Source: Marvania coccoides
Lineage: Eukaryota > Chlorophyta > Trebouxiophyceae > Chlorellales > Chlorellaceae
Direction of reading: 5' to 3'
Length of the DNA: 64,000 nt
Assembly: GCA_963854735.1 (NCBI GenBank)
Contig: OY978105.1
Span: 1,224,598-1,288,597, forward strand
This document shows positions 4,435 through 64,000 of the stretch, piece after piece. A program made the position numbers and the translations under genes. The notes below the pieces were generated by a model that was given only the letters and a program-made list of their open reading frames with translations, was not told the origin of the DNA and ran no database searches. The stretch's first letter is position 1; every line of letters starts with the position of its first letter.

Positions 4435-7231
4435 TCATTTGTTCGTTTCACTTTGCTCCTCTCCTAGCACGCTTGCTGCTGCCATGGCTTTGTAAAACCT
4501 CACCAGCTTCGAGTAGGCCTCCCCAAACTTGGGACACGCCACCACACACTGCTGGATCCACCCCGGCAGCTTGGCCATCGGCCCCGTGAGCTGTTGCTGC
4601 TTACCTCCTCCATTTGTAATACTGCCGCTCGCGCCAGCAGCGTACCGCACATCCACCAGCACCACCGCAGCGTAGTCTTGGCGATGCCGGATGGCTCGCC
4701 CCACGCACTGGTTCACCGCCTTCATGCACAGATTGGAGTAATGTTCCCGAGACGCAGAGCTTCCACCGGCACTGCCGCTGGCTCTGTCGATGAATTTCAG
4801 GCGTTCCTGCAGCTCTGGGTCGGAGGGGTTGGGGTAGGGCAGCCCCACCATAATGACGCACCTCCCCAGCGCATCCCCAAAGTTGATACCCTCAGCCAGC
4901 TTCCCACCGACTACGCACAGCAGCAGGGCACCGTGGCTGCTCGCAATGCTCTCTGCGTACTCCTCCAGGGTAGATTCCACGTCGCCCGCAGCCCGAGGTT
5001 CCCGATATACTTTTTTTTTGGATCCTAGCGTGCTCAGCATGCCAGTACTGCCCCATCGCGCAAAAACTTGGTCAGCGTAGGAAAAAGAAGGCAGGAATAC
5101 GACCACGCCCCCCGGGGCAGCGGAGCACACGTTGGACACCAGGCGTCCCAGCTCGTCCACAGTGGCTGGCGTGGAGCGGGAGGCGTGGCGGAAGTCTAGG
5201 GCTGCCCCACTGGGCCCTGCCCCCACCGCCAGCGCCAGCAGCCGCTCCTCGCCCACCACGTGGCCGCAGGAGAACGACGACACCGCGTCCTGGGGCACCC
5301 CCGGGAACAGCTGCATCACCGAGTCCAGCGGCGACAGCGTCCCTGAGGCCAGCACCACCGCCTTGGCGGCAGACACGACCGCCGCAAAGTGCGCTGCAGC
5401 GTTGAGCAGCACGAACTTGACGGTGGAAGCGCCAGGGTCGACCACCACGCGCCCGTCGGCGTCCTCGTTGGTGAGCGCCTGCAGGAAGAACAGCAGCGAG
5501 TGCAGCGCGCCGGTCGCCCCCTCGGTGCCGTTTGAATTTGAAGCATCTGTCGCTGGTGTATCTCCTTCTGCCGCTGCCCGCCGCTGCGCCGCTTGCCAGA
5601 ACCCCGCCACTTTGAACACCGCTTTGCTGGCTTTCACGTTTCTCACCAGCTGGAACATGTTGACGTTATCAAGGCCGGTGGAGAAAAGAAAGTCGTTGAC
5701 GGTAGTGGCTGACGCGGACGCTGACGCGGACGCTGAAACGGACGCTGACGCGGCTGTCGAGCTGCCTGCCACCTTGGCCAGGGCTTGGGCCGTGCGCATC
5801 AGCGACTGCACGTTCCTTGCGTTGGCCGGCGCCAGCTGCGCCCCAAAGCGCGCAAAGTAGGCGCTGAGCTGGCGGTGCGCGGCAGCGGCGGTGGAGGCAG
5901 ACAGATCCGCGGAGTGCGCGCCGTTGATGGCATCAGCTGCAATGTTTTTGTGCAAGAAAACCGTAAGCTGTGAAATTCTTATTGTCTTCCTTTCGCTCTT
6001 CAATTACTAAAGTTTCTGGGTCTTACCGAGGTTATGGGCTTCGTCGATGATGATAACGTTGCCCTCCACCCGCAGCCCCAGCGCCTCGCGCGTGTCTGCC
6101 ACCAGCAGCGCGCTGTAAGGCGCCAGAATGACGTCAGCCTCAGGAGTTGCCCTCCGAGACGCATAGTAGGGACACACGGAACGCCGCCGACCCAGCGCAG
6201 CCAGCGCCTCAATATCTATGGGCTGCGCCAGAATCATGTCCCGCGTGGTGTCTGCAGCCTTGGTGCCAGATGCAAGAAAAGGGCACTTGCCTGCGGCAGT
6301 GGAAGCTCGCCGACTCCCCCTTTTGCCGCCTTCTGCCACCACAGCGGCCTTTTTCCGCGCGGAGGCGGGCTTTTGCAGCTCTAGGCAGCGCTCGTTAATG
6401 AGGCCAGGCGCGCGCAGGCGTGTGACGTCGTCGTTGATGCACAGCGCTCTCCTGGAGCCCAAAGCCACCAGAGACATCGAATCCGCAAAGGGGGTGCGGT
6501 GAAGCTCGCCCACAAACTGGCTGAGCTGCGAGTGCGTGCGGGAACAGAAGATAATCTGCGTTTTGCAGGGGGCGGGCGCCTCTTCGGCCTCGCCCAGAAG
6601 CGGCAGCGCGTCCTCTTCGTCGTCGCTGTCGCTCCAGGGGTTGTCAAAACGTTTCTTATTGCCGCCTGTCCCCTCCCCTGCCCCACCTTCCTCCACCTCC
6701 TCCAGCAAAAATTCGCTGTCTGGGTCATCAGCAGCATTTTTGTCTGCAGCAGCTTTGAGGGGAACGGTTTTCGACACCAGGCGCGCCTTGGCTTTGGCTA
6801 TTCGCTTGGCGCGCTCCTCTTCCTCTTGTTTTCGTCGCTCAGCGTCCTGGTTGGCCGCGAAATCTCGCATCCAAGCGGGAATGTCTTCTTCACCCGCCCC
6901 CACCTGCTGCGCCTCTGCTGCCGCCGCTGCGGCTGCTACCTCTTGCTTCTCGCGCTCCCGGACGTCGCTCAGCCAGGTCAGGCTGCCGCAGATGAGGCTG
7001 AGAGTCTTGCCGGTGCCTGTGGGGCTCTCAAAAAGGCCGACCCCACCCTTGTCAAGGGCCGAGTACAGCGCCCGCATGAACCCCAGCTGAATGCCATAGG
7101 GGGGGTAAGGAAAGGAAGGGAACTCCTGCTCTGCAGTGCGGTAGAGAGGAATGCTGAGAAAAGCAAAAGCGGACAGATGGCAACTAAATGTGCAAAAGTT
7201 GCAACCACCTACCTTGCTCTGGGCTGGCCAT
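4435..7231 (-). CDS. DDX11: Fe-S superfamily 2 DNA helicase, DDX11/CHL1 (ChlR1) type
   Basis: Exons 7231-7213, 7130-6027 and 5936-4435 (874 residues). The 19-base first exon gives MASPEQ and splices to FPSFPYPPYGIQ, the Q-motif region typical of the XPD/FANCJ/DDX11 family. Walker A is ESPTGTGKT, Walker B is DEAH, motif VI is VGRAIRHRQDYA. Four Cys between motifs Ia and II (ALCIND, ERCLEL, GKCPFL, SVCPYY) can ligate the 4Fe-4S cluster. The charged insert after motif I, rich in Ala/Glu/Lys, is where DDX11 proteins carry one. Known role: 5'-3' helicase for sister-chromatid cohesion and replication-fork repair in the nucleus. An imperfect Ala-Ser repeat (about 5700-5750) is an odd low-complexity insert. 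The end is 235 bases from the convergent channel gene. Confidence 0.93.
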
Positions 7232-7821
7232 GGTGCGTTCCATTGTTTATTTAGAATTTGTAGAATTTTTCATTGCGTAGTTAATGCCGCTGCGAGTCTG
7301 GGCGAAGCGTTCACCGAATTTCAAATCTTTGATTATTTTTCAGGCTCGCCAAAGCAATTTTGTTACTGATTTGCGGCAATTTATGCTTGGTGATCATTTC
7401 AAATGTTCGTATTTCGAAAAAACTAAACGAAGGTCGAAAATAGGGAGAAGGGGCTGATTTTGATGAGGAATGCACATAATGCAATATGTGCATTCATACA
7501 TAACGTGAATTATATTAGAGGGAAAGCGGAAGCTTTTTCCATGAAAAATAATCATAGTCGGCAGTGCTGCTAGCGGATATAGTGTCCAACTGCTCTGGGC
7601 AAACCAATGCACACTGTGTGTCTAGCTCTGGCGCTGCGCGCAAAAGTTCCATGCAATCTCCATGCTGTCTGCGTCGTGCGTTGGCGGAGACTGCTGGCCG
7701 CGAAAAAAAACCCTTTGAAATTGTAACGCTTGAAAGGGGCAAATAGTTTACAAACATATGCAATAAACCATTCGTTCATGATTATGTTCAGCCAAAAGTT
7801 GCGTTTAATTTATTTGAGTGT
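7232..7821. other. Intergenic, 590 bases
   Basis: Lies between the start of DDX11 and the stop of the double Y-polymerase gene, both read leftwards, so it should hold the DDX11 promoter and the polymerase 3' UTR. A GC-richer island at about 7560-7740 is open on both strands for about 60-80 codons, but I recognise nothing in it and it shows no clear splice frame. Confidence 0.4.
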
Positions 7822-10800
7822 TCATTTTTGCCGCTTCACCGTGGTGAAGAAAGCGTCGAGGGGGCCCTGCCGCTTCTGCTTCTTATTCACAGCAGAAGAC
7901 ATTGCTCTCGCTGTCGTTGCAGCTGCCTCCGCCTCCTCCCTCTGCAGCCGCAGCGCAAGCTTCAAGCTGGCCGCCGCTTCCTCATCACCCGCAGTTTGCG
8001 CCACTCCAGCAGCAGCGGGCCCACCAGAGGAAGAAAAAAGCTGCTGCAAGGCCAGCGCTACGGGGTTGCGGTACGTCCCACTGGGCTGCTGGGGCTTCTT
8101 CTCCTTTATCGGCGCCTTTTTGTCCCTCAGAGACGTCTGGACAGCAACATGAGCCGCTCGGCCGCTGACCCCCCCTCCTGCTGCTGCAGCCGCTGAGTAA
8201 TGGAGCACTAACGCTACGCGAGTAACGTCCCAGCGCCCTTCATTTGCGCCGCTCACCAAAGCTAGCGCAGATGAGGCCACCGCCTCGTGGATTTCATCTC
8301 TGTCGGCAGTTGAAGATGCGTCGCCACCGCCGCCGCCGCCACTCAGCCACCGCAGCACCTGGTGAGGGATAGGTCCTGAGCGGCTCTTAATGTTGGTGCC
8401 ATAGCCCAGCCTGAACGCCACTCCCAGCTTGGCAGGCAAACGGCGGTTCTCTGCCGCGACGTCCGCAGCACGCCTTAGCAGGTCATCCGCCAGCGGGAGC
8501 AGCGCGCTCGCCACGGCGTCTTGGCTGGCAGCTGGCGGAAAGCTGCGCTCAGCTGTGAGCGTGCGGGGGGGTCCTTTGTCTGTAACAGGCGCGCTGTGCT
8601 GCGCGTTCACCAGGTCCGCTAAAAACCGCCCTCTCGCCTCTCCGAACCGCGCTTCCAGCTGCGGCCGCGACCAAGCCAGGAGCTCCCCCACCGTGGAAGC
8701 GCCCACCGTGCCCTCAACCTCTGCGCCAAACTGCCCTCGCAGAGAAGGCACTTTGTGGAGCGGCACCGAGCGAACGAATGCCACAGCCGCAGTGTCCGGC
8801 ACCACCGTCAGTCCATCAGGTTTGGCCACGGGTGAAGCCAGCCTGGCAACGAGTTTATTGCGCGCCACGCCACACGATGCCATCAACCCCAGCTCTCTAG
8901 TCAAAGCGCGCGCAGCAGCAGCCAGCTGCACCCCTGCTTGCAAATCCGCTGGCAAGTCTGCCCAGGATGCTGCATCGTGGGGCTGGTGGCCACAGCTGCT
9001 TTGTATGAACGTCAGGTTGTCTGGAAGAGGGACGGCGGCGGCATTGCTTGACGAAGAAGGGGTAGGACGAAGGCTACATGCAGAGGTGACGTCCATGTAA
9101 AAGTCATCGCAGCTCGCTTTTTCCACCTGGCCCCCTTTGGGCTCGACCAGAAGCTTCAGCGCTTCGTGAACCGCTTTTCCAATCTCACGGTAGCGCTCAG
9201 GGCGCATCGGGCGCACCTGCAGGCCAGGGCACGCTGCTTTGCACTCTGCGATGCTGCGCGCCTGCATGGAGGCCAGGTGCGGCACAGCCACCCGCCCAGC
9301 TGCCCCGGCGCCATCCCCACATCGAATCCCCGCTGCCCTTGCTTCATAGCTGACTGCCACAAATCCGCCTGCGTTGAACTGGTGCACCGCCAGCGGAACA
9401 TTGTTCAAGGAAGGATCGTCCAGCCGCTCCACCGCGCAGTAGAAGCTATCGATGTCGCTGCAGTGCAGAATAAAATATATATTTAAAAGCTAAAAAAAGA
9501 AGTAAAAGTAAACTTATGATTGTTATCTGTAAGATACCTACCAGTGAACAATGATGCGGCGAGAAGCATCTGAGGCAACATGATTGGGAGGTAATGCTGG
9601 CAGGTGCGCCCCAGCTGCTGTGTGGGAGCCGGGTTCCCGGCGGGACCGCTTCCGCAGCAGCGGCTTTGAGCCGTGCAACCCAGCCAGATCGTCCCACAAA
9701 TCCTCCTCCTCCTCCTCCTCACCTCCAGAATTGATTCCTTCTTCGCCTCCACCCCAGCCACGCTCTGCCTCTGGTTCATCCGCAGCACCATTAGGGCCAG
9801 CCGCATGTGCTGCTGTGCCCTCCCTCATGGCCCGCTCCTCGCGTTTTGATAGGGCTAGTGCAGCGCCGCCAGCGCCATAATCCCTTCGGAGGTGAGCAGA
9901 AGCCGCAGCCAGCGCGGCAGGGTCAGCGGTTGACACAGCAGCAGCAGTAGCAGCAGCAGCAGGATTCGCCCGAGGCGGTAGAGGAGGAGCTAAAGAAGCA
10001 GTTGCGCTGCCTGCACCAGCACCGCCGCCATTCATAAGCTCAGCAATGCTGCGCTGCCCTGGCGGCGGGACTCCTTCTGTGAACCCAGTCGCCCCGATGC
10101 TGAGCAGCGTGAGGTCCTCAAACGGATCAGCCAGGTTGGCAGCCAGCAGGCGCGCCGCTGCAGCAGCCAGCGCAGCCGCCACCCCCGCTGCATCTGCCTT
10201 TGACGCATGAATCGTGGGGAAGGCGCAAGACGCAGAGTTGCGGTCCCAGCCTTGTCCCCTCACCCGCCATTTCAGCGCCAGCTTGGACGGCCGTCGCCCG
10301 CTGTCATCCTCTTCCTCCCTCAGCCTCGCTGCTAGGTCTGGCGCCAGCACTTGCAGCACATTCCGTGCTGCAACCATGCCCACGCAGCTCTTGAACGAGT
10401 CCTCAACGGTTATCGATTTTGGGGGCCCTGTCTCCACAACAGGAGTGGCGTCATTTCCCCAGCGTGCTGCGGCCAAAAAGCCGCCCGCGCGCCCCCCAAA
10501 ACGCGCATTAAGTTCCGCTGCTGTATACCGCCGCAGATCCGCAACGGTGTGCACCCCTGCGGCTGCCAGTTCTGCCTCCATTTTGTGGCCAATGCCGGGC
10601 AGCGCTCTCACCGGCAGCGGGGCCACGAACTGCGTTGCATGGGGCGGCAGCAGCACGGTTTGGTCGTCTGGCTTGTGCAGCCCGCTGATGAGCTTGGCCA
10701 GCATGCGGTTGCACGCGACGCCCGCTGAGGCACGCAGTTCAGTCTCTGCTCGGACCATGCGCCTCGCTTCTTGAGCCAGCTGCGAGCCCACCACTAGCCG

Positions 10801-11433
10801 CAGCCGCCACGCCTCGTTCAAGTACGCATGTTCTGCAGAGGGTGGCATCGAAGCTTCTGGGCGGGCGCGCAGGTCCATCGGGCGGTGCCTGCTGTCCTGC
10901 TCAACGCCTGCCATCACAGCCGGCGTGTGCACGTGGCCCGCCCACCCTCCCTTGATTCTGCCCCCAGCGGCGTGTATTCTGCGCTCCACCCCCTCGGAGA
11001 CGTCGACAAACACCTCGTCCAGGCCAAGCTTTTGAGCGGGGCCAAATCGTCGGAGGACCTCCAGCAGGCGCTTGCTGGCTGCGCGGTAGGGCGTGAGGTC
11101 TTCCCCCGAGACGGTGACCAGCTCTGGGCACAGCCGCAGCGCCTCTGCGGTGGCCATGAGCTTGGTGACGCCGCGAGCGCGAGCGCGGTAGTTGCATGTC
11201 ACCACCAGAAACTTCTGGGTAACGGCCAGCGGGAGAGCGGCGAGTGAAGGGTTCCGCAGCTCCTCGCACTGCGCGTAGAAGCAGTCCACGTCGAAATGGA
11301 TGCAAACTCGAAGGGAGTCTGGCGGGGGAGCGGCAGAGTTGGCTGGGATGGTCGCGGGCTGAGGCGCGAGGGCAGAGTGGGGCCCAGCAAATTTCCCCAC
11401 TCGGTGCGCCTCCAGTGCACGCTTATTGTCCAT
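7822..11433 (-). CDS. Two-headed Y-family DNA polymerase: Pol iota-like core fused to Pol eta-like core, C-terminal PIP box
   Basis: Exons 11433-9542 and 9457-7822 join in frame across an 84-base GT-AG intron into 1175 residues. Module 1 (about residues 41-445) has HFDVDCFYAQ (acidic pair 48/50), KFLVVTCNYRAR and KLGLDEVFVD (D139/E140), and is closest to Pol iota. Module 2 (from about 625) has IIVHCDIDSFY, FVAVSYEARAAGIR and ASCDDFYMD, and is closest to Pol eta. The intron cuts the strand just before the catalytic DID, so the second polymerase has no start of its own. The linker (about 450-620) is Ala-rich and acidic. The last residues, QGPLDAFF (1161-1168), fit the PCNA-binding PIP box Q-x2-L-x2-F-F. 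Expected role: translesion synthesis at stalled forks. Module 2 has Asp where the family has the catalytic Glu (residue 749). Confidence 0.93.
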
Positions 11434-63628: not shown

Positions 63629-63744
63629 AGGCTTTAGGGTTTTTTAGGGTTTTACTTTAGTTTTTAGGTTTTTAGGGTTTAGTTTTAGTTTTTTAGGGTT
63701 TAGGTTTTAGGGTTTAGGGTTTAGGGTTTAGGGTTTAGGTTTTA
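63629..63744 (+). repeat. Degenerate inner telomere repeats
   Basis: Irregular units (TTTTAGGG, TTTTTTAGGG, TTTAGG, TTTTAG and broken forms) form a transition between unique sequence and the regular telomere. This is typical of the oldest, most proximal repeats or of a healing seam. Confidence 0.85.
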
Positions 63745-64000
63745 GGGTTTAGGGTTTAGGGTTTAGGGTTTAGGGTTTAGGGTTTAGGGTTTAGGGTTTA
63801 GGGTTTAGGGTTTAGGGTTTAGGGTTTAGGGTTTAGGGTTTAGGGTTTAGGGTTTAGGGTTTAGGGTTTAGGGTTTAGGGTTTAGGGTTTAGGGTTTAGG
63901 GTTTAGGGTTTAGGGTTTAGGGTTTAGGGTTTAGGGTTTAGGGTTTAGGGTTTAGGGTTTAGGGTTTAGGGTTTAGGGTTTAGGGTTTAGGGTTTAGGGT
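63745..64000 (+). repeat. Telomere, TTTAGGG array
   Basis: Uninterrupted TTTAGGG units (about 36 in the perfect part) run to the last base, G-rich strand 5'->3' toward the end, as expected at the right end of a linear chromosome. The unit is the plant/Chlorella type, not the eight-base TTTTAGGG of Chlamydomonas nor the TTAGGG of animals and fungi. Confidence 0.98.

Follow-up and report, generated by a model that had tools for sequence, protein, structure and literature searches.

Does a single green algal gene encode two different DNA polymerases in one chain? The question is raised by positions 7822 to 11433 of a 64,000-nucleotide stretch of the Marvania coccoides genome (Chlorophyta; Trebouxiophyceae; assembly GCA_963854735.1, contig OY978105.1, positions 1,224,598 to 1,288,597), hereafter the window. 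The original prediction placed two complete Y-family DNA polymerases here, one Pol iota-like and one Pol eta-like. On balance we think it probable that one nuclear gene of this green-lineage eukaryote directs a single 1175-residue, PCNA-tethered two-core bypass enzyme, in which a Pol iota core would insert and an eta-like core would assist.

A two-exon frame across both modules

The gene and its parts, called module 1 and module 2 for the two polymerase regions, are arranged as follows.

7822..11433, reverse strand: whole gene, in two exons, whose joined frame specifies 1175 residues including two Y-family polymerase cores (from splicing and translation, and from two IMS stretches)
9542..11433, reverse strand: exon 1, 1892 nucleotides, with the Pol iota module, the linker and the opening beta strand of the second module
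9458..9541, reverse strand: intron, 84 nucleotides, GT-AG (GTAGGT...CTGCAG), 75% A+T
7822..9457, reverse strand: exon 2, 1636 nucleotides including the stop, with the remaining eta-like core and the C-terminal tail
7804..7814, reverse strand: AATAAATTAAA, 3' of the stop, likely polyadenylation signal (putative role, from a motif scan)

Splicing and translation reproduced the predicted arrangement exactly: frames of 1892 and 1636 nucleotides join in phase over the 84-base GT-AG intron into 1175 residues with no inner stop, and Pfam finds two IMS stretches on the spliced chain. From base composition alone, the chance of open runs of 630 and 545 codons is about 1e-10 and 3e-9. The last codons of exon 1 read RRIIVH, the codon split by the intron encodes Cys, and DIDSFY follows; together these residues form the first strand of the Y-family palm. 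Among the 18 GT..AG pairs (at least 40 nucleotides apart) within 9350-9700 that keep the frame open, only 9541/9458 restores R-R-I-I-V-H followed by D-I-D-S-F-Y, in agreement with the predicted position of the intron inside the strand leading to the second DID. The intron was also considered as the seam of a fusion, which was rejected because module 2 already begins upstream of it, with its first strand.

The A+T content of the intron (75%) stands against 35% and 37% in the exons. Eight introns placed by hand in the eta, kappa and REV1 genes of this genome are all GT..AG, 91-251 nucleotides long and 55-70% A+T, and by sequence the 84-nucleotide intron appears typical of them. A motif scan found no TGTAA, AATAAA or ATTAAA from the start codon to the end of the intron; 3' of the stop are AATAAA at 7814, ATTAAA at 7809 and TGTAA at 7752, and another AATAAA lies at 8859, within exon 2. 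Given the open frame, the unique junction, the genome-like intron and the lack of a polyadenylation-like motif between the modules, a single gene spanning both is very likely.

Lineage and active sites of the two cores

The two cores and an insert in the second were delimited on the spliced chain.

10072..11319, reverse strand: module 1 core, residues 39-454, Pol iota, with palm, fingers, thumb PF21999 and PAD (from domains, tree, model and conserved residues)
8197..9561, reverse strand: module 2 core, residues 625-1051, eta-like, interrupted by the intron, Asp748-Asp749 replacing Asp-Glu (from search, trees, model and alignment)
9274..9321, reverse strand: residues 677-692, most of an insert in the fingers (about 19 residues in all, borders uncertain) next to where human eta has Arg61

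Module 1 carries the Pfam domains IMS, iota thumb and IMS_C. The thumb model PF21999 matches at 36.6 bits (cut-off 27), although it is not exclusive to iota, the genome's own REV1 scoring higher at 65.5 bits. The best solved relative is human iota (234 bits versus 142 for eta). In the trees, where iota is represented besides module 1 by one partial human sequence, module 1 groups with human iota and apart from eta, kappa and REV1 with support of 99/96 in the main tree, and with 97/92, 96/91, 98/96 and 74/68 in four further sets. Of the 27 conserved columns, in which 12 or more of the 13 reference sequences agree (six known enzymes, three genes of this genome and four unannotated prokaryotic loci), it keeps 26, including the D-D-E triad D48, D139 and E140. 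Iota heads the best 50 Foldseek rows for its model, which comprise both iota and eta. No UBM ubiquitin-binding motif was found by Pfam (E 0.1) in the 1175-residue chain, and our claim accordingly covers the core of iota and not the full-length protein. Judged from its sequence, module 1 is an orthodox Pol iota core, and the low-fidelity insertion opposite T and Hoogsteen pairing characteristic of iota are putative traits of module 1.

For these comparisons, 12 prokaryotic Y-family loci from GTDB contigs served solely as outgroup or as rows of alignments: 11 in the main tree (L028, cut by a contig end, was omitted), eight in the structure alignments, and four in three of the four further tree sets and in the conserved-residue alignment. 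No relative came from IMG/VR, scanned with single proteins as well as with alignments of two rows, and the only NCBIfam models matched, those for Pol IV and UmuC, stayed under their cut-offs.

Module 2 scores 107 bits against eta and 71 against iota, and its thumb is of the eta/REV1 type in Pfam. It groups with Pol eta in all five trees, on a long branch and with bootstrap values of 89-98 (96/89 in the main tree; 95/93, 98/95, 92/90 and 89/89 in the four further sets). Among the best 50 of 335 Foldseek matches to its model, all are Pol eta. AlphaFold predicts full cores for both modules, that of module 2 with a PAD, at mean predicted local distance difference test scores (pLDDT) of 69.8 and 65.3, means that are lowered by the tails and the linker. 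Placing the two modules as sisters was rejected in four of the five trees by the approximately unbiased test (p-AU 0.006 in the main tree; 0.015, 0.005, 0.037 and 0.065 in the further sets, the last being the smallest set), and recent tandem copying was rejected with it. The original prediction that one frame combines an iota and an eta-lineage module, neither a recent copy of the other, is supported by their separate placement.

Support for the grouping with eta is below the starred level in two sets, and the alternative placement with iota is rejected (5%) in one of the five trees. The catalytic triad of module 2 is D632, D748 and D749, with Glu at the third position in 13 of 13 reference sequences. 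For module 2, VIA-align gave no separation between eta and iota. Eta descent is favoured by these sequence comparisons, not proven.

The active site of module 2 is altered in part. It keeps 21 of the 27 strongly conserved residues and has lost six, and retains the equivalents of human eta D13, D115, Y52, R55, K231 and S113. Gln occupies the Gln38 position in module 2 and in the eta and iota rows, and in none of the other nine rows. Gln38, Tyr52, Arg55, Arg61, Lys231 and the steric gate are positions with roles known for human eta. The region of the fingers insert (model residues 48-65 of module 2) has pLDDT below 50. The key residues of human eta are described as D13, D115 and E116 (PMC9141541, PMC10048814), and the double mutant D115A/E116A is reported to be inactive (PMC10048814); the Glu-to-Asp change in module 2 would be milder. 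The D-D-E triad of Pol eta is absent from module 2, D749 standing in place of Glu, and we accordingly speak of an eta-like core rather than of Pol eta. No UBZ was found by Pfam (E 0.1) in the 1175-residue chain, nor in the genome's ordinary eta.

An IMS search of the genome returned at least nine matches, falling into four genes: the tandem gene, kappa (contig C5; 327 bits to human kappa), REV1 (contig C1; 272 bits to human REV1) and an ordinary eta (contig C5; 178 bits to human eta), which keeps the Glu and ends in the PCNA-interacting protein (PIP) type motif QANINRFF. Since eta, kappa and REV1 are encoded elsewhere, module 2 is, by homology, an additional, fifth Y-family core. Its identification as the Pol eta of this genome did not hold, and the view that it is the only one was rejected.

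Several features of these other genes were noted. The ordinary eta (L010 4711-5187) has a run of 30 alanines at residues 97-126, encoded by GCT repeats before the first intron. The last frame of kappa (L009 2447-3364) weakly matches a RanBP-type zinc finger, which might bind ubiquitin; the score of 19.2 bits falls short of the cut-off (27). REV1 (L011 2646-6910) has an N-terminal BRCT and, in its last frame, a Pfam UBM match.

Linker, C-terminal tail and chromosomal setting

Outside the cores, the chain contains a long linker and a terminal motif.

9574..10068, reverse strand: linker, residues 456-620, about 165 residues, low-confidence in the model
10033..10056, reverse strand: QRSIAELM, residues 460-467, PIP-like, directly 3' of the iota PAD (weak, without the two aromatic residues)
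9720-9685, reverse strand: acidic linker stretch EEEEEEDLWDDL
9654-9637, reverse strand: basic linker stretch RKRSRR
7846..7869, reverse strand: QGPLDAFF, residues 1161-1168, canonical C-terminal PIP motif (motif scan)

The linker is probably disordered, given its low model confidence, and its acidic stretch presumably resembles acidic-hydrophobic RPA-binding motifs. With the PIP consensus as in PMC11276120, QGPLDAFF is, as predicted, a canonical motif, and it is the sole strict match in the chain; shuffled chains had a strict match in the last 25 residues in 3 of 20,000 cases and anywhere in 174 of 20,000. A C-terminal PIP is also a mark of eta, and module 2 carries such a motif. We infer from the motif that the chain binds PCNA through QGPLDAFF. 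QRSIAELM stands at the position where kappa is described to have an internal PIP (PMC11276120); because its aromatic pair is missing, it is only a lead as a PCNA binder. The genome's own REV1 has a PIP-like GQRSIAAF after its BRCT, close to QRSIAELM.

The window forms the terminal part of contig C9 in an assembly of 22.46 Mb and 15 contigs. An array of 45 TTTAGGG copies (63633-64000) terminates both window and contig; this repeat is the usual telomere unit of plants and of many green algae. Given this terminal array, the gene lies about 53-56 kb from the chromosome end. Just downstream on the same reverse strand (4435-7077), two frames with DEAD_2 and Helicase_C_2 form an XPD/DDX11-like helicase gene. 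Rfam, at gathering thresholds, had zero matches within the window.

Proposed working of the chain and its alternatives

In the two-core reading that we favour, the C-terminal PIP would hold the chain on PCNA, the iota core, with its intact active site, would insert opposite lesions, and the eta-like core, kept near by the linker, would take over the primer end or hold the DNA. The Glu-to-Asp change at the third metal ligand and the longer fingers loop would slow or retune the eta-like core, and standard eta work would be left to the ordinary Pol eta gene. Such a chain could switch from one active site to the other at a lesion, as originally proposed. Module 2 may be slow, retuned or mainly structural, and whether it would extend or merely hold DNA turns on the Asp for Glu change. 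It seems unlikely to us that the chain performs a full two-step bypass in cis, in which iota inserts and the retuned eta-like core extends, while intron retention yields stand-alone iota and splicing picks one or two active sites.

The intron bears on how many products the locus makes. Read unspliced, the frame continues H-W-stop and terminates one codon beyond the exon 1/intron junction, so that retention would yield a 631-residue, iota-only product with its complete core ahead of the stop. Splicing could then set the ratio of this form to the two-core form. Retention of an intron, however, mostly introduces a premature stop, and transcripts of this kind are frequently degraded; a dual-product gene is in our view improbable. 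Alternatively, the iota frame might end at this stop as a gene of its own, with module 2 expressed from a separate transcript. The original prediction held that module 2 has no start of its own. This is so in exon 2, where the earliest in-frame Met is residue 695, past the catalytic DID (residues 632-634), but Met 467 and Met 536 lie in the exon 1 linker, after module 1, where a separate product could in principle begin, and module 2 would have its own eta-like C-terminal PIP. Nevertheless, the iota frame already encodes the first strand of module 2, no polyadenylation-like motif separates the modules, and the intron is typical of the genome, all of which makes two genes more improbable still.

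Whether both cores are active is a separate matter. The prediction of two complete polymerases holds for the predicted fold, while the activity of module 2 is uncertain. Module 2 might be a pseudo-polymerase that keeps the fold and the DNA or PCNA contacts with little or no catalysis, and serves iota as a clamp-side, DNA-binding scaffold arm comparable to bacterial ImuB. The Asp seen in none of the reference sequences, the six lost residues and the long branch are in its favour, and inactive, more divergent bacterial Y-family members are described (PMC6511836). Against it, the key eta equivalents are retained, the replacement residue is also a carboxylate, and a full core with PAD is predicted. 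We regard such a pseudo-polymerase as a possible but lesser reading, and would give a mainly structural second core about a third of our confidence. The long branch and the altered catalytic residue would also fit a decaying, non-functional copy; with about 545 open codons, a predicted intact fold and an intact terminal PIP motif, decay is very improbable.

The favoured two-core enzyme may be set beside known systems. Module 1 shares with iota (Rad30B/POLI, human and fungal) the fold, the D-D-E triad, the thumb domain, the best PDB match and the tree position, but the tandem protein has a second polymerase core behind a linker and no UBM by Pfam. Module 2 shares with eta (Rad30A/POLH, including the genome's own) the thumb type, tree position, fold, Gln38 and extreme C-terminal PIP, and differs in being fused behind iota, in the Asp for catalytic Glu116, the fingers insert, the lack of a UBZ by Pfam and its strong divergence. 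Separate Y-family polymerases likewise have a PIP tether to PCNA, flexible tails and selection and switching on the clamp (PMC11276120), features that the tandem protein would share; eta, iota, kappa and REV1 are described there as separate proteins, whereas the two cores here stand in cis. ImuB, an inactive bacterial Y-family protein (PMC6511836), would offer a parallel should module 2 act mainly as a scaffold. ImuB is, however, a separate protein, and an ImuB-like loss of catalytic carboxylates is not seen in module 2, which has carboxylates at all three positions with one Glu-to-Asp change.

The original prediction took plants to be usually described with eta, kappa and REV1; Pol iota has, however, been published before for green algae as well as for Chara, Klebsormidium and Selaginella (PMC8595933), and the novelty therefore lies in the tandem. 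Consistent with the original prediction, no natural protein chain with two Y-family cores in tandem was found in the open-licence PMC literature, surveyed mostly by titles and opening lines, and as far as this literature goes the tandem arrangement is the new part. Bypass enzymes are described as competing for one clamp, with choice and handover at the lesion an open matter (PMC11276120), and the cellular function of Pol iota is called enigmatic (PMC8595933). With its two distinct cores, a natural chain of this kind would let handover in cis be studied directly by experiment, and would hint at a working partner of Pol iota.
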